DNA of 64,000 nt from Caenorhabditis elegans (Eukaryota > Nematoda > Chromadorea > Rhabditida > Rhabditidae), in assembly GCF_000002985.6 (NCBI RefSeq), contig NC_003283.11:13082001-13146000 (forward strand), read 5' to 3'. The notes below the pieces were generated by a model. It saw only the letters and a list, made by a program, of their open reading frames with translations. It did not search any database and was not told the DNA's origin. Shown here piece after piece: positions 41,950 to 64,000 of the stretch. Position numbers and translations under genes: made by a program. Numbering within the stretch: the stretch's first letter is position 1; each line of letters opens with the position of its first letter.

Positions 41950-44260
41950 AGTTGAGAAAGGTTGTCCCCATTGATCCGAAAGATTGAAATTACAGTAATT
42001 TTTAAAGGCGCACACTTTTTCTGCATTCACCAAAAATTGCCGTCGCGAGATCGAGTATCGTACTACAAACTTGCAACATTTGGCTCGTTTAATTTTCGAA
42101 GTGTTGAAGACGTCTTCAGAGAGTGCCGAAGCAAGTATAAACTTGTTATCGGCGACTTCAACGCTCGAATGGGATGCAGACAAAACAACGAAAGGTACAT
42201 TGGCCCCCATGCCATGGAACCAAGAAATGATACTGGAGAGCTTCTCGCAACATTTTGTGAAACCAACCGTCTGTGGCACACGAACTCTATGTTCAAAAAG
42301 CCTATACACAAACGGTGGACTTTCGTCAGTCCCGACGGGAATCACAGACACGAAATTGACCACATTTTGGCCAATGGAAAGTTTGTCACAGATACCACTG
42401 TACTCCCCTCTTTCACAAATGGTAGCGACCATAGGTTACTCCGCTGTAACCTCCACTTCAACAATTGCCTAGCAAAGTTGGAGCAGGTCAGACGGAGAAA
42501 ACCTCCGAAAAGAGTGTTGGACCCGACGATTGCTTATGCAATCTCAGCGACAGTCACAGTTCAGAGTGATCCTGATTTAGATATCGACTATGATAATCTG
42601 ATTCAGTCACTAAAAGAACTCCAAGACCAAGCTATCGTTCGACCGGCCAACCACTCATCCAACAGACTTTCGGAGGAAACCCGAAAACTGCTGAACAAAA
42701 GACGTTTTATGGATAGAAATGATCCCCAATTCAAATCTATTTCAGATAAATGTCGTGAAGCAGTTCAGAAAGACCATGAAGCTTTTGCCAGTACTCGCCT
42801 TCTATCTGCTGCGAACCAGAAAAAGAGTTTGAAAAGAGTTGCTAGGGACATCAACGAATATAAGTCAGTTATCCCATGCCTCAAATCAACCTCTACTGGT
42901 GAAAGAATCACTTCCAGGGTGAAAATGGAGCAGGAGATTGAGAAGTTCTACACGGAGCTCTTCAAAAGCGCTGTGAGCAACTCTCAAACATCTTCAATAC
43001 CCACCACGGCAACTCCACCGCCGTTTCTCCCGGAAGAAATTCGTTATGCTCTCCGTTCCTTCCCGAATGGTAAAGCTGCAGGCCAAGACAAAATCAGTGC
43101 AGATTTCTTGAAATCTTGCCACGATAACGTCATTGACCTGATAACGGATCGATTCAACAGGTACCTCCACAGCAGAAATGTACCGAAACCCTGGAAAACC
43201 TCCAAAACCATCTCTCTTTTACCCCATTCCACAGGCCAGTCGCAGTACCTGTGACCAAAGGAGTTCGACAAGGAGACCCCATCTCTCCGAATCTCTTCTC
43301 CGCTTGCCTCGAACACGTTTTCCGAAAGCTTTCCTGGATTGAATTGAAAGGAGAAGCTGAGGATTACGATACGATCCCTGGAATGAGAGTGAATGGCAGA
43401 AATCTAACAAACCTTAGATTTGCTGACGATATTGTGCTCATCGCCAATCATCCGAATACTGCCAGCAAAATGCTCCAAGAACTCGTACAAAAATGCTCTG
43501 AAGTAGGTCTCGAGATCAATACTGGGAAGACGAAAGTCTTGCGAAACCGATTCGCTGACCCCAGTAAAGTCTACTTCGGTAGCCCTTCCCCCACCACCCA
43601 GCTCGACGACGTCGACGAGTACATCTACCTCGGTCGTCAAATCAACGCCCAAAACAACTTGATGCCGGAAATCCACCGAAGACGTAGAGCAGCCTGGGCT
43701 GCATTCAATGGAATCAAGAACACCACCGACTTCATCACCGACAAGAAGATTCGTGCGAATCTGTTCGACTCAATTGTCCTTCCAGCGCTCACCTACGGTT
43801 CAGAAGCCTGGACATTCACCAAAGCTCTATCCGAACGAGTACGAATCACACATGCCTCCCTAGAAAGACGGCTTGTGGTAATCACACTCACTCAACAACG
43901 AGAACGAGATCTTCAACGAGAAGACATCCGAGTGATGTCTCAAGTAAGAGATCCGCTCAACTTCGTGAAAAAGAGGAAGCTAGGATGGGCTGGACATGTT
44001 GCGAGAAGAAAAGACGGAAGATGGACCACGTTGATGACAGAATGGCGCCCATGTGGATGGAAAAGGCCTGTTGGAAGGCCGCCGATGCGATGGACTGATT
44101 CGCTGCGAAAGGAGATCACCACTCGTGACGCAGACGGAGAAGTCATCACCCCCTGGCCCACTATAGCCAAGGACCGAAAAGAATGGCTTGCTGTGATCCG
44201 CAGGAATACCACGAATTCCTGAAGAACGGATCGTCTAAGTATCCTAAGTAAGTAAGTGGT
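41950..44260 (+). mobile_element. RTE-type non-LTR retrotransposon, truncated and internally deleted
   Basis: Remnant of an autonomous LINE of the RTE clade. The first open part (41962-43254) carries the second half of an apurinic endonuclease domain ([12 protein letters not shown]; later [12 protein letters not shown] and GSDHRLLRC) and the start of the reverse transcriptase ([13 protein letters not shown]). The second part (to 44222, in another frame) begins [19 protein letters not shown] and includes the catalytic FADDIVLIAN and the C-terminal region (KRKLGWAGHVAR). About 150 residues of polymerase, including the first catalytic Asp block, are missing at the junction near 43225-43245, with a frame change. 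The 5' end is lost inside the endonuclease, and the 3' end has a short AAGT repeat tail. It is much more GC-rich than its flanks and is not functional. Confidence 0.9.
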
Positions 44261-44645: not shown

Positions 44646-47600
44646 TTAGTAGTAGGTCTCACGCTCGACCCATCCTCCTGGATATCTGCGAATCAAGAAA
44701 CGACGGATCTCGTCGTAGACGAAGATGAGGATTGAGAATGGAAGGGCACAGAACCACCAGGAGAATCTGAAAAATGTGGAATATAATAATCAAATTTATA
44801 ATGAGATTTAATTGTCTTCTTACCTGAGTCCGTACATACGAAGTCCATTGTCAAGTCCTGGGCAATAGCACATGAACCAGGCAAGGGCGGTTTCGAAGAC
44901 AAGTCCAAAGTTGAGGGTCCAGTTGGACATTCCCTGTTGGACAAGGGAGTTACGTCTGGTCTTGGAGATGATCAAATCAGCCCATTGTACAACAACAATG
45001 GACACGAAGTAGGCGGTTTGGCAGGTGTATTCGAGGATCTTTCTGTTGGCATAGGTCTGAAATATATTTGGAGTTAGTTGATCACAAACTGACAATTAAA
45101 TAACTTGCCCATTCTTGTCCGTAGGAATCGAGAACGTTGTTGTAGGCACGAGAATCCCATTGAGCACGGAGCTGGTAGAGATCCCATGGCATGAATCCGT
45201 TATCAGCCATGATCCAGAAATAGGTGAAGAATCCAGCAGAAGCTTGAATCATACCAATTTGCCCATAAGCAAGGGAGATCAAACGTTCGTTTACAAGCTT
45301 GTCACGGATTGGGTCACGTGGCTGACGCTTCATGATGTCGGATTCGGCTTCTTCGTAGGCAAGGGAGATAGCTGGCACCATGTCAGTTCCGAGATCGATA
45401 CAAAGGATGGTAACGGTTCCGAGTGGAAGTGGGATTCCGAACAGGATGTAGGTCAAGAATGGAGAGATTTCTGGAATATTTGAGGTGAGTGTGTAGGCGA
45501 TGGATTTCTTCAAGTTATCGAAAATAAGACGTCCTTCTTCAACACCAACGACGATGGAAGCGAAGTTATCATCAAGCAAGATCATGTCAGCAGCTTGTTT
45601 TGACACATCAGATCCAGCAATACCCATAGCAACTCCGATGTCGGCCTTCTTTAAAGCTGGAGAATCGTTGACTCCGTCTCCGGTTACAGCGACGATTTGA
45701 CCTTGCTTCTGGAATCCTTCGACGATCATCAGCTTTTGCTGCGGTGAAGTACGAGCGAATACGATTTCAGAGTGGTACTTGATGATCTCGGCAAGCTGAT
45801 CCTCGCTCATCTCACGGAGATCGGATCCGTGAATAACAGCGGCCTTGGCTTCACGTGGGTTGACTTCTTCGACTGGAATTCCACGACGGATAGCAATATC
45901 TTCAACGGTTTCAGTTCCATCAGAGATGATTCCGACAGACTTGGCAATGGCCTTGGCTGTGATTGGGTGATCTCCGGTGACCATGACGACTTTGATTCCT
46001 GCGGAACGGCACTTGGCGACGGCATCTGGGACAGCAGCACGTGGTGGATCGATCATAGACATGAGTCCGACGAATCTCAAATTTTTCAATGGGAAGTTAA
46101 CCTCTTCAACATCGAATTTGAATCCTTTCGGGAACTTGTCGGCTGGAAGTACGAAGTCACAGAATCCGAGAACACGTTCTCCCATTCCTCCCAACTCAAG
46201 ATAGGCAGTGTTGAAATCTTCGCGAAGTTTGTCAGTAAGTTCAGATTCTTTTCCGTTCAAGAAGATGGTCGAGCAAACATCCAAAATTCTTTCTGGAGCA
46301 CCCTTCATAACAAGCAAGTAATGATCTCCATTGTCGTGAATCGAAACTTGGTATTTGTTGGTGGAGTTGAATGGAATTTCAGCAATCTTCTTGTTCTTTT
46401 CACGGACAGCGATGACATTTCCTTGAGTAAGCTCAGTGAACTTAAGAAGAGCAATCTCAGAAGCATCTCCTGTGCAGTCACGACGAAGAATTGGAGTGTC
46501 TTGTTGTCCAGCCTTGAACTCGGCACGGTTACAGAGAGAAGCAATACGGACGAGAGCCTGAAAAATTGATAAAATATTTTGCAAAATGAAATTTGAATTA
46601 TTATCTTACTTCGAAGCTGGCTCCAGTTCTCTTTTCCTGGCTGGTTTGAGTTTCGGTGGTATCACACTCATGGATGGTTTCATCGTACCACATGTGAGCG
46701 ACAGTCATTCTGTTTTGGGTGAGAGTTCCTGTCTTATCAGAGCAAATGGTAGATGTAGATCCAAGGGTCTCGACAGCTTCAAGATTCTTGACAAGGCAGT
46801 TCTTGCTAGCCATTCTCTTGGCGGTAAGAGTAAGGCACACAGTGACGGTAGCGATCAATCCTTCTGGGACGTTGGCGACGATGATACCGATGAGGAAAAC
46901 AACAGCGGTAAGCCAATGGTATCCGAGGATGAAGGCGATGATGAAGAAGGAGATTCCAAGGAAGACGGCGACTCCAGTAATAAGATGGATGAAATGCTCA
47001 ATTTCACGAGCAATTGGGGTCATTCCGGTGTCAAGTCCTGAAGCCAAATGGGCAATTCTTCCCATGACGGTGTTATCTCCAGTGTAAATGACGATTCCTT
47101 TAGCGGTTCCTTCAACAGCGTTGGTAGAGAAGAAAGCGATGTTACGGGTCTCGAGTGGATTTTCGTTGGTGCAGTCTGGGGAACGGGATTGTGGCTCAGA
47201 CTCTCCGGTGAGAGAAGAGTTGTCAACCTTGAATCCGAAAGCAGAGACAACACGAAGATCAGCTGGAACACGATCTCCTCCTTTGACTTCAACAATGTCT
47301 CCGACGACAAGTTCTTCAGTCTTCACTTGTTGCTTTTGGCCATCACGGTGAACAAGAGCAAAGGTTGGAACCATGTTCTTAAAGGAATCCATAATCTTCG
47401 ACGACTTGCTTTCCTGATAGTATTGGAAAACTCCGGTGATGACGACGACAGTCATAAGTACAATTCCGAGGTACAAGTTATCCTTAGATGGGTACTCCAT
47501 GGTGAAATAATCCACAGAGTAGGCGATGTAACAAAGGATAGCTCCAACCCAAAGAAGCATGGCAAATCCTCCGAACAAGTTCTTACAGAACTTGATCCAT

Positions 47601-47987
47601 TCTGGGGTAGTTTCAGGGGGTGACAAAGCATTTGGTCCGTTCTTGGCGAGAACTTCTTGAGCCTTCTGGCGGGTCAATCCCTGAAAAATTCAATTTTAGA
47701 TTACAGAAAACCAGATTTATTCGAATCAAAAATTATTTCTTCTCTCATCAGAATCAAAGACCGGAAATTGAGAGATGTGATAACAAAACACTCATTGATA
47801 CAAATCAACCTTCGAAATCAAAAGATACGCAATCGGAAATGACTATTTTTAGATTTAATGATACACCTACCGTTTCGAGATTGGTTCCGAGTCTGGCAAC
47901 AAGCTCCTCAATCGGAACGATATGCTCGTCCATTTTGACCTCCTGCTTGAGGTCATGTAACTCCTGTTTCTTGTCTTTTTTACCCAT
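44646..47987 (-). CDS. eat-6: Na+/K+-ATPase alpha subunit (P-type ATPase)
   Basis: Plasma-membrane pump exchanging three Na+ for two K+ per ATP; in C. elegans eat-6 is needed for pharyngeal muscle and neuronal excitability. Exons in gene order: 47987-47871, 47680-46610, 46557-45109, 45056-44824 and 44766-44646, totalling 996 residues, the normal length. Motifs: [15 protein letters not shown], the phosphorylation site [12 protein letters not shown] (Asp at about 354), [28 protein letters not shown], the hinge [21 protein letters not shown], and ending VERETYY. It starts [10 protein letters not shown], with a basic N-terminus and a trans-splice-like acceptor just upstream. The fourth junction uses a GC donor, seen directly. 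No defect was seen in any catalytic motif. Chosen as eat-6 by identity and by acly-2 next to it. Confidence 0.96.
45057..45108 (-). other. GC-AG intron in eat-6
   Basis: The exon ending GAATGG is followed by GCAAGTTA instead of GT, and the intron ends TATTTCAG. The join gives [21 protein letters not shown], which matches the conserved alpha-subunit sequence. A nearby GT would not preserve this, so the rare GC donor is well supported. Confidence 0.85.
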
Positions 47988-53944: not shown

Positions 53945-56059
53945 TTAGAGCGCCCAAAAATTTGCACTGAATCCTGAACCTTGGCCAGATGAATCTGTTG
54001 AGAAAGTGACAAGCATTGAATTGGAGGACGACTGATAGGTTTTCGCATGTGCTGGCCATGTACCACTAACTATTCCAAGTTTTGGACTTCCGAGTAATGG
54101 ACCATCATGAACTTCAATAATATCACAACATTGTTCAGTGTCAATTGCTCCAAAATCTAGATTAATTCTGTATCCTCCAGTTGTAGAGAGATGATACATG
54201 CATAACAAAAAGTTTGGATAATAGTTTGGATAATTAGGTGTGCTTATAGATCCTGGAGCTACCAAAATGGTTGAGTTACATCCTGATGGATTATTTGGAT
54301 TTGGGGTTACTGTAACTGGTGGCTGAGTAACATCAGTGGATGGTTTGAAATCAGCTTCCCATCTATAGTTGACACCATCATTCGGACAATTTGCAATACA
54401 TGGGCGGAACACTACTTTCATTGTATTTGTTGTTGAAGTGTACCATTGATTGCTTGCAGAATTTCCTTGAAGAACAACCAAAGGTGTAGTGTCTTCAATT
54501 CGACTGTAAATGGAAATTGATGCCTGACTATCCAGATTCATTACTGGGAATCGAATTTGGACAAGTGAGCCGACGGGAGTGTCAAGAATGTAGTTGCATG
54601 GATTCTGCTCGCCAATGTAGCTGTACGGCCAGCTTGGGGAATAGAACTGAAAAAAAATTAAATTTGGAAATAATTGCAATATTTGACAAAATAGCAGACA
54701 TAATCATTTTTGGAGTTCAAGGTAGTATCATTGGTAAAATTGATTATATGAATATAAAAATTGAATTAATGTTTGATGTCTTTTAGAAAATAAAATTCAA
54801 AATCTTAAAACCTACTCTTCCAGAGTTATCCATAAACATTGGAGAAGTGCACTGTCCTGGTGTTTGAGTTGGTCCAGAAGTTGTTCCACACTGTGTTCCA
54901 ACTTTTCTCTTACAAACAAATGGTAGAGAAGTATCACAATAGCTACTAATCCATTTTCCAGTTGAAACAATATCATTTGAAAGAGCCATACTCCAACACA
55001 TTCCAAGATTTATATTTGAGTATCCAATGTTGTCATAATTCCAGCTTGTTCCATCAATCCAACTATTAGAATTTTGATTATTAGCTACTGCTCCAATTCG
55101 AATATATGTTGGTGCATTTGTTGTGAATAAAGATTGAACATAATTATTTTCTTCAATCGAGTGAATTGATACAAGATTTCCACATGCTTGTTGGCAAGAA
55201 AATTGAGCATCTTGTTTGGGAAGGGCAGAAAGAGACGGATAATAGCAATTTCCATTATATTGGAATGAACAGGTATCGGTGATTGGGCTTGTTGGTGCTG
55301 TTTCACAGATAAAGTTCAGGCTCATTGTGTTACAGTCTCCGCTGAGCCATTTTCCCGCAAATGAGCCACTTGTTGGCACGTAGACGCAGTTTCCAACTTC
55401 AACAAGAGGGTATCCTGAAAATAAATATTGATCTTAAGAAACATTTAAGATTCTAAGAATTCTAACAAAATCGCAACTTCCCTTTTAAAAATTTCACACG
55501 ATCCTTCAACTTGGTAGAAAAATAAATGAATAAAAGATAGCTCGAAAGCTGGTGGTTCAGGCTTAAGTCTTTAATAAGTCGGAAATTTTTGTTTCTCAGA
55601 ATTTAGTTCTGATTTCAGTAAAACATCTTGGGATCAATTCAGATATAGTTCGAATTATAAACGTTATTCAGCCCCAAGTTAGTACCTTTAAGAAAATGAT
55701 GACTTTGATATACAAATCTTACCCGGAGCAAATCCATTATAGCCTCCCGCATTTCCACTTTGATCATCCCATTGACAAGATGCTGGGTTTCCAGACAAAG
55801 AACATTTGATCCCAAGCCAATATGGAGTTACTGAAACAGCAGCCAATTGTAGATATGCATTATTGTCGATAGCATTTTGAACAGAAATCAAGTGTCCTCC
55901 ATATGAACTACAATTAGCTGTAGCATCTGAGTGCTTCGCGACGTCTGTGATAAGCTTCACACATTTTTTGCTTGTACTCAAAGCAGTGAATCCTGCAGGA
56001 CAAGTGTCTGCCGAGACTGCTACAAGAATGGCGAGAAGTAAAGTAGAGTGAAACCACAT
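53945..56059 (-). CDS. clec-41: C-type lectin with two CTLDs and CUB region
   Basis: Secreted lectin-like protein of 545 residues. Exons in gene order: 56059-55723, 55414-54816 and 54646-53945. The signal peptide (MWFHSTLLLAILVAVSA) is followed by CTLD1 (CPAGFTALSTSKKC ... YWLGIKCSLSG ... CQWDDQSG ... GKWLSGDCNTMSLNFICE). CTLD2 (CSFQYNGNCYYPS ... YIRIGAVANNQNSNSWIDG ... GKWISSYCDTSLPFVCK) comes next. The C-terminal third has two CUB-like parts (SPSWPYSYIGEQNPCNYIL; ISTPNYPNYYPNFLLCMYHL ... CCDIIEVHDG). No EPN/WND sugar motif was seen. The CTLD-CTLD-CUB order and chromosomal neighbours match clec-41 as I remember it. The start at 56059 was chosen over an upstream in-frame ATG because it begins a good signal peptide. 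Confidence 0.8.
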
Positions 56060-56324
56060 ATCGCATCGTCGGAAATGATTACTTTTGCAATCATTTAAAT
56101 AGAATGTGCGACGCCCACTGAAATATGGATTATTTGACACTCTTATCTTAATAATTGGAAAAAAAAGTGTTATCAGTAATTGATGATGATACGACTTAAA
56201 GATGACGAATGGGAAAATCACACTTTAAGCTGTTTAATATTCAAATAAATATAACATTATTGTGATTAAAACGTGAATTTCCGGAGGTTAAATTTCATAA
56301 GAAGAGACGAATAATATTCAGAGC

Positions 56325-56795: not shown

Positions 56796-59700
56796 ATGTC
56801 ACTTAACAAGAGTCTATATTTTAAATGTTTAACACACATTGGAAGTTCGACCAAACATTGTTGCACCTCCACATTTTCAGTGGCCCACTATTTCAAATCG
56901 GAAGTGAAACATCATGCTTCACAACACATGCCATCTATGGCACCTATGAACACATTTGATTTCTCGCCCAGCACCATCAGATGTACGAAAATGGATTTGG
57001 TAACATTTATCATTCGAAATGTCATGGAATATCATGTCGTAATGTTCCACGAGATTTGGAGTACAACAATCGAAAATCTATCCATCATAATCATCAGGGA
57101 AAAACAATAAAAAAGAAGAACGGGCGGCTGGTTTTTTGTCGAGGAATCGAGATTGATGGGAAGCAGATCAAGAAGCCTAGAGATCCATCTTCAACAAGAA
57201 AAAAGTAAGCTTTTAGATATTTTTCATTTTGATATTACATTTCAAATAATCTGTCTAAACTATACACACTGGTTCGTCAGAATTTTCTGATCTGCAGGGT
57301 CAAATCAAAAACGTCAAATGTTCAAATGCAAGTTGTTCTCCATGAAGAATGTCTTCCATCATTTCCAGCATGGAAAGGACAAGTGGAAAGTCTTGCCGAG
57401 AAATTAAAAGATGGTGGTTTAGAAACAACTTTAAAAGAAATTAAAGTACTCTGGAAGGACTGGACTAGAGAAGCTGCAAAGAATTATTTAGCAGGTGAAG
57501 AAATCAGGTATGCACACATTATTATAATTTCAATCAAAAATGTTATTTTATCAGTGCCCCACAAATAGGAAGATCTCCATGGAGGAACACAATGGCGGAA
57601 AATACTGAAAAAATAAGCAATCAGCTCCGATTAAATAACAAAATAATCACAATGTTCTTCAAAAAATACCGAGAAAGATGTCTAATTGATTGCTCGTTTC
57701 TTCTAAGTGAAAATGGAAGAACTGTACCAGAACTTGAAAAACAATTGAAAGATTTTGTGACACATACCAAGAAAATTGTATCTTTTGAATGGCCAATGGC
57801 TGTGGCAAACTTGATGTTAGATGAAGGGGCGTCGTGGATTCCATTATTTGTAACTTCCACGTCACATACCGTATTCAATGCTGTCGCTGCTACAATGGCA
57901 AGACTTTTGTATGACGTTGTGATGGAGAACATCAATAGAGTTAAAACCTTCTTCGATTTGGATGATAGAGCGAAATTGATTATTATATTAAAAGAGGATG
58001 AAAAGGAATTCGATTATTGGCAGAAAGTGAATATTCTACTTGGTTTATGTAAAAGTAAGTTTACCTACAAAAATGTGAAGTTTTTGATTTTTGATTTTTT
58101 CAATTGCAAAAAATTGCCAAAAAATTGGAATAGAATCTCTTGCTTTGTGTATATTTTTTAATTGGTAAATTTCTCCCATAATCTAGCAATTTGTGGCAAA
58201 TTCAGTTACTAGGATTGTCTAATCAAATGTTTTTTAAATTACATTTAAGTTGTAGAATTTATGTTTTGGTGTTTTCTGCTTTTACACTTTTTAATTAACT
58301 TTTTTAAAAATTTCAGTACCTCGAGTTGACCATAAAATCTATCCTCGAATGTTTACTGAAGCATGGATTGACGTAACAAATTGGTTTGACTCTCAAAGTA
58401 TCGTGTTCAAACCACTTCCTCAACCTTTCGAAATGCTCAACTCACGAATTTCACAAGTGGAGCAAATGCTCATTTCCTTTGAGAAGGATCCAGATGATGT
58501 CGTATTTTGGGAGAAAATAGCCAAAGAAATATTGGAAATTCGAGAACAAGTTTTAAGGCAAAGTACTCGAATCTTGAAAGGATTTATTATTTATGATAGT
58601 CGTGATATCAAAAAGAGATCTCTTTCGAAGATAACCGAATTGGAAGAAAAAGCAAAATCGCTGATTTTGATTCGATTAATTGGAAAAAATACAGGAATTC
58701 GGGAAGTTTTTACTCAATGTTCTGCTAAACTGTTTCGAAATGATGTTTTGGTGCAATTGCGGAACATTGAGGAAGTTCAAAACGAGCTTCCGAGTATAAA
58801 AGACCGAATAAAAATTGTTGGACAAACTTATAAAGTTTACATGGAATACTTCACGATGCCGGATTACGATATTCGTCAGTTTTATGAAATTTCAAGATTG
58901 GGATTCAAACTTGAACAACTTGTAAATTTTGTATGGGATCGAATTAATCATGAAAGACAATGGATCACGAAACAAGTCTCTGAACAGACATCGAAAAATT
59001 ATTATGAATGTGAAATGATTGAAAAGGAATGGTTGGATTGTTTGAAAAAGTATCGAAGTGCAGTGAGAATTAATGAAGTTCAAAAAGTTCAAATTAAAAT
59101 GGGAAATTTGGAGGAAAGAAGTGCGATTTTGAAAGCGAAAGATGAGGTTAGACATTTGTAGAGGCTTTGAATCTACTTTTCAAAAATTACGCGTACTTAT
59201 AAAATTAAGCTTCCAAAATAAAGCCTCCTAAATCAGAAACTGCTTGCGGAAAACCTCTGGAAATCGGAAACTTGTTATGTTTATTTTTCGACGATAATCA
59301 TTTTAAATTATAAGTTTTCCAGAAGTTCTCAGAAAAAATTCTGGATTGTAGTTCTTGGGAGTTAATAAATTCTTTTTGAAATATTTTATTCATACCTAAA
59401 TAATGTTATTGCCGAGATTGTTCAACAAAAATTCCAGAAATTAATTGGACAACGATCACTTTTGGGATTACTGTCTTCTCCAATTGATTGTGTCAGAATT
59501 GCCAAAGTTTGCGAATTTTTCTCAAAATTATCTACACTTCATTTCAAAACTCTTCTTCATCACGAATCATGTTTAAGAAGTAAGTAAAAAAGTGTTGGGG
59601 TTATTGATCAATGTACCGTTTCAGTGAGAATTTCTGATGTAGATCATAATTCGTTGGTGATTGAAACCGAGCGACTTCAAAGTGAGAAAAACGATCTCAA

Positions 59701-62700
59701 AGAAAAAGCAGCTGTGATTAAAGTGAGATTTTGCTGAATATTATCTTTTAAGTGCTAATTAATGTAGGAACACGAAACAACGTCAAAAGAAGCGCTACTA
59801 AAAATTGAGATAGTGCTTGCTGAATTTGAAAAGCTTCTACCAGTGCTTGGGGCAATATCCTGTCAAGCCATGAAAGATAGACATTGGAAAATGATTCTGC
59901 AAGATTCTGAAACCAGTGTGAAAGTTGAAGGGAATCCGCTTGTCAGTGAACTCTTAGAGATGAATTTCATTGAGAAAGCTGACAAGTTTGAGCAGGTATT
60001 TTTGCATGAATTGGTTTGCAAAATTGGCTCATTATTTTCAGGTTGGCGCTCAAGCAGAGAAAGAGCGAGTTTTGGAAACATCTATCGAAAAAATGAAAAG
60101 TCAATGGGTTACCGCAACGTTTGTCACTCACCAAGGAGGAGAACTCCTGACCACTGAATTAAATGTACAAATGCAGGCTCATTTGGCAAGAAGCCAGACT
60201 ATTTTATCATCCCCTCATGCATTCTCAATTCTCGATCATATTAGACATTGGTTGGATACTCTTTTAAATTTGAATACTTTTGTTCATTTATACAAACAAT
60301 GCGATACAAGATGGAGAAAAATTGAAGGAGTTTTTTCAACTGAAGATATTGCATATCAAATGCCACATGAATTTCGGACGTTTAAAAAGATTTCTTTGCG
60401 ATGGTTGCATATTAACAATCAAATAGTAAGTGAACAATTTTGCTAATTTTTTACCCATTTTTAAAGAAAATCGGATTTTAGCAAGCTTTCTAAACTTGGA
60501 AACAACGGGTCTAAAACATACTGACTGTAATAGAAAAAGCTTATTTTGATTAATTACAATCAATTTTCAGACTGAAGAACGGCCAATTCTGGAACAAATG
60601 GATTTAGTTCAACAATTGAATCTAGAACTTTCTGAATTAGAAGTCTTATTCGGGAGAATGGAAAATGGGTTCCATGCATATCTTCGAAAGAAGAGAGCTG
60701 TATTTCCCCGTCTTTTTGCACTTTCAGACGAGCTTGTTCTATCACTTATCTGTGACAGTCGGGAACCTGCAAATTGTAAATCATATATACCATTACTGTT
60801 TCCATCACTTACTACATTTGATCAAAATACCAAAATGGAAATAATATCAGTTTCTACGAAACTCGAAACTATTTCTCTTGTGAAACCTGTCAATGTGAAC
60901 CTATCCAAGCGGCACGTGGAGAAGTGGATGCATGAACTGGATTCTCAAATAAAATATACACTGAGAACACGAATTCGATTACTAATAGAGAAAATGAACT
61001 ACAAATTGAGTCCTGTGGAGACAATATTGAATGAACCAATACAAGTTGCAGCGGTTTATCTGAAAATTGCATTTACATGGCAGATGGAGAATAGCATGAA
61101 ACAAAATTCATTGACGGTGAGTCCACATCTGGTAAAGTTACATTTGAAACTTTTAGATATTGGCAAGTGAGTTGAAAATTTGTATCAGGGACTGTCAACA
61201 TGCCGTTTTGCATAAACATGATCGATGGGAATTTCTGCCTGTTTTGTACCACATTTATAAATCATGTAAGTTGAATGTTTAATATACACCAGGGGTGTGC
61301 GGCAAATTTGCGGAATTTGCCGAATTTGCCGTTTGCCGAGCTCGGCAAATTTGCCGAATTTGCCGAGTACGGCAAATTTCAAAAAAGTAGATTTGCCGAA
61401 TTTGCCGAGCTCGGCAAATTTCGAAATTTGCCGCACACGTCAAAAATTTTACAGTACAATTTTGACTAAAATTATTGATTTTTTCGCCAAAAATTTAGTA
61501 AAATGACACAAAATTGAGTTAGTTTTATGCTTAAGCAGACACTCTACACGGAACTTATTCAGAAACCAGATGTGTGTTAAGAATTCGGTAGTTTTGGTGT
61601 TCCAAAAAACATCAAAAATTATCAAAATTTTCCGAATTTGTTAAGCACGGCAAATTTGCCGAATTTGCCGAATTTGCCGAGCTCGGCAAATTTTGAGATT
61701 TGCCGCACACCCCTGATATACACATAAGAATTTATTGATTAACGTGTTTTTCGACACCCTAGAGATATTGCCTTGTAAATCAATTTCATTATTTTTAGCG
61801 ACACACCTTGTGAATAAATTAATGAATGAGCAAGTTATATTCATAGATGACTATCGATGGACATCACAAGTAAGTAAACCTTTCACCAAATTGTATACAT
61901 TCGAAATAAAAACTTTTATTATCAGCTCCGCTACTATTGGCATTTGGAAAATGTCTTCATCCGTGTTGGAACAGTCTCTACTCGATATGATTATGAAGTC
62001 CAGGGAGTTGATTGTATGATCGATAACCAGTTGGTTGATGAAGCAGTCAAGTAACTTATCATATTATTTGAAGTAGTAATATTTTTAAAATTCTAGATAT
62101 TTTATATGTATGAATCATTTTGGATTCAATGGATTTGTGAATGGAATGGATGTGAATCTCGCAAGACAAATCGCTGGAGCACTTGGAAAACCATTTGCAA
62201 TTTGTGATACTGAACAAGAAATAGACTGTAAAATGCTCATTGAAGGAGCTCTTCTGTTTGGTGGAACAGTTTTTATTGAAGAGAAAAACTTGGAAGAATT
62301 ATGGAAAAGCACAGAAAAAGATGTGTATACATGTCACAGTTTATCCAATTTGAAATATCATTTCGAATCTGAAATAACATTGAATTCATCATTCATGTTT
62401 TTACTGTAAGTAATACAAAATATTTTATTTCTCGAGTATTTCAATTTTAGATCATCATCATTCCAAACTGCGAGAAGTTTACAATTTGGCAATTCTTCAT
62501 ATAACAAAGTTATCGATGAGAAACTCTCATTGAATAGCATTGCACATCGAGAGAAAAAAGTTCAAAAGTTCCAAATAATCTCAGATTTTGAAAATTATTT
62601 CGGGAGCCGGGGTCTTTGGAAAAACTATCTTGAAGCGATGATCTGTCGAATTTTGGAAAATGAAAACGCGGAACAAGAGTTGGTAATTGAGAACTCGATA

Positions 62701-64000
62701 TTCAAACATTTGAACGTTTCGATGAATAGAAAGGTATATTAGGATCTGATTACGAGACTTAATCCGAGTTTATAAAATTATTTTTCAGAACAAAAACTTA
62801 TTGGAAAAGCTTCTTCAACTTGGACCTCTAAAGATTAAAAAGTCTCCAACTCCATCGAAAACTCCGAAAAGTTCAGAAGCACCGCGAAAGGAAATTGATA
62901 ATGATCCAACTTACATAAAAGTAAAAACTGAAGACCTCATAAACTTGCTTCATAATCATCAAGTTGTCGTTGTCTCTGGTGCAAGTTTAACAGGAAAGTC
63001 CAGGATAATTTCCAAAGCTGCAAAATTAAAATCAGCGGATGTGGAAAACGAATATGGATTATGGGAAGAAATTCAAGGATTTGGAGAGTCTGTAAGTTTC
63101 CATTTTGAAACGTATTTTTTTAGTTCAAATCTCCAATATAAATTCAGTTAAAAAATATGCGACGACCAAATAAATGGATAGTGATTGATGGATGTATGAG
63201 TCGAAAAACAAAGGAATGGTTGCACAGATTGATTAATGAAAACACGGTATTTTACAAATTACTTGAATCGATGATTTTTAGATTTTTACAGATGTTTCCA
63301 TGGAGAGAATTACCTATAATCGCACTATCTGAACGAGTTATCATCGAAACGGATTCTTTGGAATCTGATATTAAATCGCTTCCAATGATACTTCTAGACA
63401 CTTCTGAAGAGGTTTCCAGGGAAACAACCCTGGAAATCACAGAACAACAGAGAATCGATGAAGTTTTAAAATACTATTCAGAGTTCAAATATAGAAAATA
63501 CGAACTTATTCGGAAGATTTCTGGATTAAAGTTAGATTTTTATTTTTGTAAGATTTGTAGCTTTTGATTTCAGAAAGTTAATCACGACAAATAGTGAAAA
63601 AGTTTTCGAACATTTACTAATCACCTCACTTCTTAGTTTTGCCTCTTTGAGACAACTTGGCAGTTTCTTCTTCAAATCGGTAGGTACTTTATTAAAATTA
63701 TGTAAATTCCACATTTTCCAATTTAACCTTTCGGTTGTGCTTTTCAATCCTAAAGAGTAATTAAACATGTATTTTCTTTGAAATATTGGCATATTCCAGG
63801 AATCAAAACTTTTGGATTTCTACAAAGATGTACCCTACTCTGCTGGCTGGTACACCTACAATGAGTCTATGGAAATACCTCCATCTTTGTTTTATATGAT
63901 TCATTTAATTGGTTTACTTCTTAATTCTGACTTTATTCCTCTTCTCGTTTGTCCTCCAAGCCAAGAATTTTACGAATTTCTGTTACGGCTTCAAATTGAA
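56796..64000 (+). CDS. dhc-4: Divergent dynein heavy chain, 5' part (runs off the window)
   Basis: Motor subunit of a dynein; this window covers about 1700 residues of stem, linker, AAA1 and AAA2. Exons: 56796-56903 and 56981-57204 (first part uncertain; start could be 56981), 57298-57507, 57555-58054, 58317-59146, 59438-59579, 59625-59722, 59768-59995, 60042-60425, 60571-61116, 61157-61265, 61799-61869, 61926-62050, 62097-62405, 62451-62733, 62789-63091, 63148-63246, 63292-63530, 63574-63679 and 63800 onward. Landmarks: the linker KDRHWKMI (family RHWKEI), RKKRAVFPRLFALSDEL (family EKKRLFFPRFFFLSNDEL), AAA1 entry DYRWTSQLRYYW, and AAA2 GASLTGKS with KWIVIDG. AAA1's P-loop position (62125-62178) reads GFVNGMDVN, without GKT; its Walker B-like FIEEKN keeps the acidic pair. 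An acceptor 3 bases before 56796 suggests the 5' end. The identity rests on B0365 neighbours and family motifs. Confidence 0.82.
61290..61715. mobile_element. hAT-type MITE built of TTTGCCG units
   Basis: It lies inside a dhc-4 intron (61266-61798). Both ends read CAGGGGTGTGCGGCAAAT inward, and the flanks carry the exact 8-base duplication ATATACAC (61282-61289 and 61716-61723). The outer parts are repeats of AATTTGCCG/CGGCAAATT; the centre is unrelated AT-rich sequence. It has no open frame. The 8-base target duplication and CAGGGG ends point to the hAT superfamily. Confidence 0.88.

Follow-up and report, generated by a model that had tools for sequence, protein, structure and literature searches.

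The gene at the right end of the window, dhc-3, very probably encodes a dynein heavy chain of the inner-arm class that has lost its hydrolytic ring. The window is the whole stretch of DNA analysed, 64,000 nucleotides of Caenorhabditis elegans chromosome V (C5):13,082,001-13,146,000. As judged from the predicted protein, it is well supported that the whole motor ring of DHC-3 has eroded and not AAA1 alone. We tentatively propose, with slightly less than even confidence, that DHC-3 would be a motor-dead inner-arm dynein acting as a passive microtubule tether. The dhc-3 gene itself is already known. The motor-dead inner-arm reading was not found in the literature searched, outside which most subscription papers lay; Kollmar 2016, reportedly a large dynein survey, may already describe nematode DHC-3.

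Gene identity and splice model

57326 to 64000, plus strand: 5' part of dhc-3 (B0365.7), from the splice model; gene name from PMC6237615 and PMC3112216

The ka33 deletion in B0365.7 has been placed at chromosome V 13,150,172-13,150,276 (PMC6237615). In window coordinates this is 68172-68276, outside the window, where it spans the final 15 intron bases before exon 68187-68326 and 90 bases at the start of that exon. Since the published deletion maps inside the gene model, the right-end gene was deduced to be dhc-3. The gene extends beyond the window, and the adjoining 19 kb were therefore added for modelling.

The model, obtained with a splice-site and codon programme, has 36 exons (57326-70466) with 9,576 nt encoding 3,191 amino acids. 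Its start codon at 57326 was chosen manually among the alternatives given by the programme. An earlier model (56 exons, 8,448 nt) was discarded for having too many introns. The coding length in print is 9,828 nt (PMC10917524), so that 84 codons are missing from our model or differently cut. The ka33 deletion is said to disrupt the final eight exons (PMC6237615), in agreement with the last eight modelled exons, which start at 68187.

No stop was present in the 3,191 codons of the 36 exons, under a modelling rule by which exons may not contain one. For the 940 codons from AAA1 to AAA4 there were 0 stops against a mean of 73.9 in base shuffles, and the coding score was highest in frame in six of six regions. 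The broken reading frame of a pseudogene was thus not found in dhc-3; since openness was imposed during modelling, the open frame is taken as support only.

Class of the linker and stalk

59534 to 60978, plus strand: linker, Pfam DHC_N2, residues 537-924, introns inside (hmmscan, 2.2e-54)
59801 to 62121, plus strand: linker stretch aligned to DNAH3, residues 596-1080, introns inside (phmmer; 108/389 identical over the rows copied)
65630 to 67014, plus strand, outside the window: stalk
66387 to 66725, plus strand, outside the window: microtubule-binding domain in the stalk

The assignment to the inner-arm class is supported by the following data. Compared with the PDB by phmmer, the whole DHC-3 protein matched 88 sequences at E <= 0.001, the best being 8j07_g3, which is DNAH3 (3.9e-134). 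This was followed by a 4,069-aa chain labelled malate dehydrogenase, taken for a mislabelled DNAH3 orthologue, and then by DNAH7, an unnamed 8glv chain, DNAH12 and DNAH1; the 8j07 chains are presumably human and 8glv presumably Chlamydomonas. When the linker was searched alone (best 60 of 70 matches), the scores were 189 bits for DNAH3, 146 for DNAH1, 140 for DNAH7 and 131 for DNAH12, with lower values for outer-arm gamma (102), DNAH6 (93), DNAH5 (89), DNAH2 (86) and cytoplasmic dynein-1 (67). The stalk alone (best 60 of 89) gave 267 bits for DNAH3, 254 for DNAH7, 235 for DNAH12 and 191 for DNAH1, followed at a distance by outer-arm gamma (128), DNAH6 (124), DNAH2 (123) and DNAH5 (96). By score ranking, both parts were therefore closest to the single-headed inner-arm dyneins. 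A dynein-2 chain was absent from the best 60 matches of the whole protein (of 88), the linker (of 70) and the stalk (of 89), and among the matches listed neither part was closest to DYNC2H1. The stalk of CHE-3, the one known class checked in this way, ranked DYNC2H1 first with 264 bits.

The stalk of DHC-3 was identical to that of DNAH3 at 137 of 331 positions (41.4%) with one two-residue gap, the first coiled coil, microtubule-binding domain and second coiled coil giving 42.8%, 38.1% and 43.8%, respectively. For the linker, 108 of 389 positions were identical (27.8%). A chimeric origin was considered and dropped, as the linker and stalk are of the same class.

Loss of the AAA ring

62097 to 62405, plus strand: exon at the AAA1 position, from the splice model; no AAA_6 match, AAA1 alignment at chance level
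62131 to 62154, plus strand: GFVNGMDV, the AAA1 P-loop of the first-pass annotation; translation, placed by position only
62272 to 62289, plus strand: FIEEKN, Walker B-like in the alignment of the first-pass annotation; translation
62978 to 63001, plus strand: GASLTGKS, AAA2 P-loop, the sole in-frame GxxxxGK[ST] of the dhc-3 model (motif scan)
63175 to 63192, plus strand: WIVIDG, AAA2 Walker B-like (alignments)
63953 to 63976, plus strand: PPSQEFYE on the AAA3 P-loop position, P-loop absent (MAFFT, weak alignment)
65057 to 65080, plus strand, outside the window: AAA4 P-loop position

At E <= 1, hmmscan of the whole protein returned six families, of which the dynein ones were DHC_N2 and MT only, the latter comprising the coiled-coil stalk and microtubule-binding domain (4.8e-24, residues 2041-2347). 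No family of the six-AAA+ ring or of the C-terminal domain was returned at this threshold. Genome profile searches covered seven contigs (100,286,401 bases) and were run exon by exon, which puts short-exon genes at a disadvantage; the exon-wise matches of dhc-1 and che-3 served as controls for the ring families. PF12774, PF12780, PF12781, PF12775, PF03028 and PF18199 each matched dhc-1 and che-3 and nothing on chromosome V, with PF12775 also matching a third place, on contig C1. The MT profile matched dhc-1 and dhc-3 and missed che-3; DHC_N2 matched all three genes and one place on chromosome III.

The motif GxxxxGK[ST] was counted four times in DHC-1, twice in CHE-3 (AAA1 and AAA2) and once in DHC-3. 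In the three forward frames of 57000-70600, two matches of this type were found, GASLTGKS at 62978 and GAGVFGKT at 62603, the latter out of the coding frame. Dynein AAA2 binds ATP without turnover, and the AAA2 remnant of DHC-3 would be a structural nucleotide site.

The ring was further compared region by region with DHC-1 and CHE-3, using approximate models made by the same method (4,857 and 4,004 aa; we take the annotated lengths to be 4,568 and about 4,170 aa). Against DHC-1 and CHE-3, respectively, the stalk of DHC-3 gave z-scores of 22.9 and 17.2, and weak residual similarity was observed for AAA2 (3.4 and 5.1) and AAA5 (5.9 and 1.6). The values were 2.8 and -0.9 for AAA3, 1.3 and 0.0 for AAA4, and -0.2 and 0.8 for the C terminus. 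Neither part of the ring had a significant match in the PDB: the AAA1-AAA4 piece had three matches at E <= 10, including a single dynein (E 0.21, in the AAA4 region, with the P-loop not kept), and the piece from AAA5 to the C terminus also had three, of which two were dyneins (best 0.067). When DHC-1 and CHE-3 are aligned with each other, the highest identity among eight regions falls in AAA1 (49.6%), against 28.4% for the stalk (MAFFT). The alignment scores of DHC-3 against these two proteins follow the opposite pattern, with the stalk high and AAA1 at chance. In the global MAFFT alignment with DHC-1, AAA1 (21.5%) and the stalk (22.3%) are nearly equal, from which it was deduced that percent identity to the worm's own dyneins hides a contrast that the scores reveal.

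The first-pass annotation had described a heavy chain that lost its AAA1 motor site among otherwise intact dynein motifs. The loss is supported by these data; its restriction to AAA1 was too narrow, since the whole ring is eroded. "Intact" holds for the linker and stalk and fails for the ring, whose families were undetected and which had no significant PDB match. On inspection of the P-loops, the hydrolytic ones were absent and AAA2 kept GASLTGKS.

The exon at the AAA1 position

The exon at 62097-62405 is open and lies directly behind the dynein linker, where AAA1 must lie; it was assigned to AAA1 because of this place and not by residue alignment. Local scores against AAA1 (200 shuffles each) gave z = -0.6 for DHC-1 and 0.0 for CHE-3, and -0.6 and 1.4 when more upstream sequence was included. 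The letters at 62125-62292 do lie in an open exon, with GFVNGMDV and FIEEKN as read earlier. The residue alignment built on them, with Lys replaced by Asp and Thr by Val, did not rise above chance in the shuffles, and MAFFT places a four-residue gap through the P-loop. The P-loop is absent on either alignment, and no GxxGxGKT was found in frame near AAA1. Consequently, "no P-loop" can be quoted for this site and "Lys to Asp" cannot. A single-codon sequencing error was dropped as an explanation, as the majority of P-loop positions differ.

It is extremely unlikely that the model is wrong and that an ordinary AAA1 site lies in some exon or isoform missed by it. The 84 codons by which the model falls below the published 9,828 nt speak for such an exon, but the introns beside the exon are 46 and 45 bases long and the next ones 56 and 55, and no other coding-frame P-loop was found in the three forward frames of dhc-3. 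Furthermore, the loss is ring-wide, and one extra exon would therefore not restore the ring.

The p28 light chain

C6:16,841,105-16,842,918: intact gene for a p28-type axonemal dynein light chain, taken for dyla-1 (profile and protein matches)

A genome search with PF10211 found one gene, at C6:16.842 Mb, with two exons. Its 271-aa model matched p28 at 9.2e-45 and Pfam Ax_dynein_light at 1.2e-62, and it was taken for dyla-1 because no other such gene was found in the genome. The NYD-SP28 profile gave no match here and none in the controls, so that its silence carries no weight. In motile cilia, p28 belongs to single-headed inner arms, and Wickstead and Gull noted the p28 homologue while stating that C. 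elegans has no genes for axonemal heavy chains (PMC2239267). A 2023 paper likewise states that C. elegans "completely lacks axonemal dyneins" (PMC10605206). Wickstead and Gull excluded extremely divergent sequences (PMC2239267), which may be why DHC-3 was missed.

Expression and phenotypes

In the published expression data, a dhc-3 transcriptional reporter was seen in OLQ and also in HSN and three tail neurons, a DYLA-1 translational fusion was expressed in OLQ, and OLQ cilia looked normal without CHE-3 or XBX-1 (PMC3112216). DHC-3, DYLA-1 and DYRB-1 were proposed there to form a second IFT-dynein, and DHC-3 has been treated as a candidate IFT-dynein or IFT component (PMC3112216, PMC6237615, PMC10917524). 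For dhc-3, neither this description nor that of an animal without an axonemal heavy chain would fit the predicted protein. That DHC-3 is a working second IFT motor is very unlikely: its OLQ expression and the CHE-3-independent OLQ cilia favor the proposal, but the AAA1, AAA3 and AAA4 P-loops were not found by motif scan and alignments, the ring families were undetected by hmmscan, and the linker and stalk fall outside the dynein-2 class.

With regard to phenotypes, ka33 and ka201 are reported to be dye-filling negative and macrocyclic lactone resistant (PMC10917524), and ka33 and dhc-3 RNAi to be drug resistant (PMC6237615). Dye filling of the same dhc-3 allele is variable in one paper and negative in the other (PMC6237615, PMC10917524). 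DHC-3 is placed in amphids in PMC6237615, citing a paper that lists OLQ. Gonad lipid droplets were reported normal after dhc-3 RNAi (PMC8208577). With the X-box consensus, 19 matches were found in the window against 14.1 expected; no match fell between 55043 and 63293, and thus none at the dhc-3 start.

The resemblance of the amphid phenotypes to those of che-3 (PMC6237615, PMC10917524) favors a role for DHC-3 in the ciliary transport of amphid and OLQ neurons, as an adaptor or partner without motor activity that would, for example, carry cargo or pair with CHE-3 and restrain it. This reading, close to the "inhibitory partner" of the first-pass annotation, is considered unlikely. The linker and stalk rankings give an inner-arm class rather than dynein-2, the published reporter is in OLQ, HSN and tail neurons, and OLQ cilia are normal without CHE-3 (PMC3112216).

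The same phenotypes (PMC6237615, PMC10917524) argue against dhc-3 being a ghost gene, open and spliced, decaying and of little or no function, as suggested for human DNHD1. Also against it are the 3,191 codons without a stop, albeit in a model built open, and the DHC-3 stalk, which is 41% identical to DNAH3 with its length kept. On the other side, the ring has diverged past recognition, others did not find an H. contortus homologue, in genomes described by them as incomplete (PMC6237615), and DNHD1 offers a precedent (PMC8754002). Such a gene is judged quite improbable here.

Proposed role as a passive tether

The preferred reading is that of the passive tether. DHC-3 very probably descends from a single-headed inner-arm axonemal dynein of the class of DNAH3, 7, 12 and 1. 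Its AAA ring is near unrecognisable as a whole and has no recognisable hydrolytic site, while the linker and a full-length stalk with its microtubule-binding tip are kept. A ring of this kind is not expected to power the linker swing, and DHC-3 should not step. One microtubule doublet would carry the tail and linker, perhaps together with DYLA-1 as p28 light chain, and a neighboring doublet would be held by the stalk tip. DHC-3 would most likely form a static tether in sensory cilia that do not move, chiefly the cilia of the OLQ mechanosensory neurons. A length-preserved spacer with a microtubule-binding tip, a linker and p28 would be the anatomy of a non-stepping cross-bridge. The "scaffold" of the first-pass annotation came near this best explanation; the inner-arm class was not seen there.

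The distal segments of OLQ cilia are described as having a central filament surrounded by a square of four doublets, with thin fibres joining the doublets (PMC3965213). It is possible, though rather doubtful, that DHC-3 and DYLA-1 form these fibres as a p28-bearing strut kept after motility was lost. We infer that DHC-3 would bind DYLA-1, lie in the OLQ fibres and bridge the doublets. In support of the tether are the inner-arm score ranking, the loss of the ring, the kept stalk and the intact p28 gene from this analysis, together with the published dhc-3 and dyla-1 reporters in OLQ (PMC3112216) and the OLQ inter-doublet fibres (PMC3965213). Two published findings concern related structures: EFHC-1, a motile-cilia protein, is static in OLQ cilia, and efhc-1 mutants respond normally via OLQ (PMC6392500); Drosophila mechanosensory chordotonal cilia retain dynein arms and motility (PMC6367277).

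The published amphid phenotypes of dhc-3 are not easily fitted to an OLQ tether and would call for wider expression, second mutations in the strains or a transport-linked role. Also against the tether are the reported absence of a gross OLQ defect in dyla-1(tm3306) (PMC3112216), the reporter in HSN and tail neurons, the placing of AAA1, which is without statistical support, and the percent identities, which show no contrast between stalk and AAA1.

If DHC-3 proves to be an inner-arm dynein with a dead motor, p28 gains a testable partner heavy chain, the second-IFT-motor model needs recasting, and OLQ cilia become a simple setting for the function of a non-stepping dynein arm. If the strut reading is true, C. 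elegans p28, hitherto unexplained, is given a heavy chain, and an engine-less dynein a structural use.

Chromosome III relative and window neighbors

Chromosome III carries a further gene resembling dynein heavy chains (C3:10,970,943-10,991,839, approximate), whose DHC_N2 linker is of the inner-arm type. The first 2,113 of its 2,834 modelled residues match DNAH7 (1.6e-18), DNAH12 and DNAH3. Its P-loop-like stretches appear degenerate by eye, and the gene is possibly another inner-arm remnant, decayed further than dhc-3. Its span also includes, on the opposite strand, three similar collagen-like stretches.

Within the window, at 61266-61798, a repeat element with TTTGCCGA-type units lies in the long intron before the AAA1-position exon. 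With terminal inverted repeats (61285-61307 and 61698-61720) that are 91% complementary, it resembles a small inverted-repeat transposon. By eye, an open frame at 43137-44222 reads in translation like a non-LTR retroelement reverse transcriptase, minus-strand exons at 45082-47689 like a Na+/K+-ATPase alpha subunit, presumably eat-6, and minus-strand frames at 53945-56224 like C-type lectin and CUB domains.

Comparison with known systems

DNHD1, an orphan dynein-like protein called a ghost gene (PMC8754002), resembles DHC-3 in being dynein-derived, in persisting and in that it may be non-motor, a likeness by description. Dynein-2, the IFT-dynein (CHE-3, DYNC2H1), is like DHC-3 a large heavy chain reported in ciliated neurons; CHE-3 keeps the AAA1 and AAA2 P-loops and its stalk ranks DYNC2H1 first, whereas DHC-3 does neither. 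VAB-8 and Vik1 are ATPase-dead kinesins. Like DHC-3 as predicted, they are microtubule-binding motor relatives without ATP turnover that have kept a role, by analogy only, as they belong to a different motor superfamily. The closest system is that of the single-headed inner-arm dyneins (DNAH3, DNAH7, DNAH12 and DNAH1). Unlike these, DHC-3 has no recognisable ring or hydrolytic P-loop, is about 900 aa shorter than the DNAH3 chain (4,116 aa) and belongs to an animal without motile cilia, the cilia of C. elegans being immotile (PMC2239267); with its ring lost, it does not have the features of a working motor of a motile axoneme. It shares with them the nearest linker and stalk in separate searches, a stalk of the same length as in the DNAH3 class, and a p28 homologue, the light chain with which they associate, encoded in the C. 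elegans genome too.
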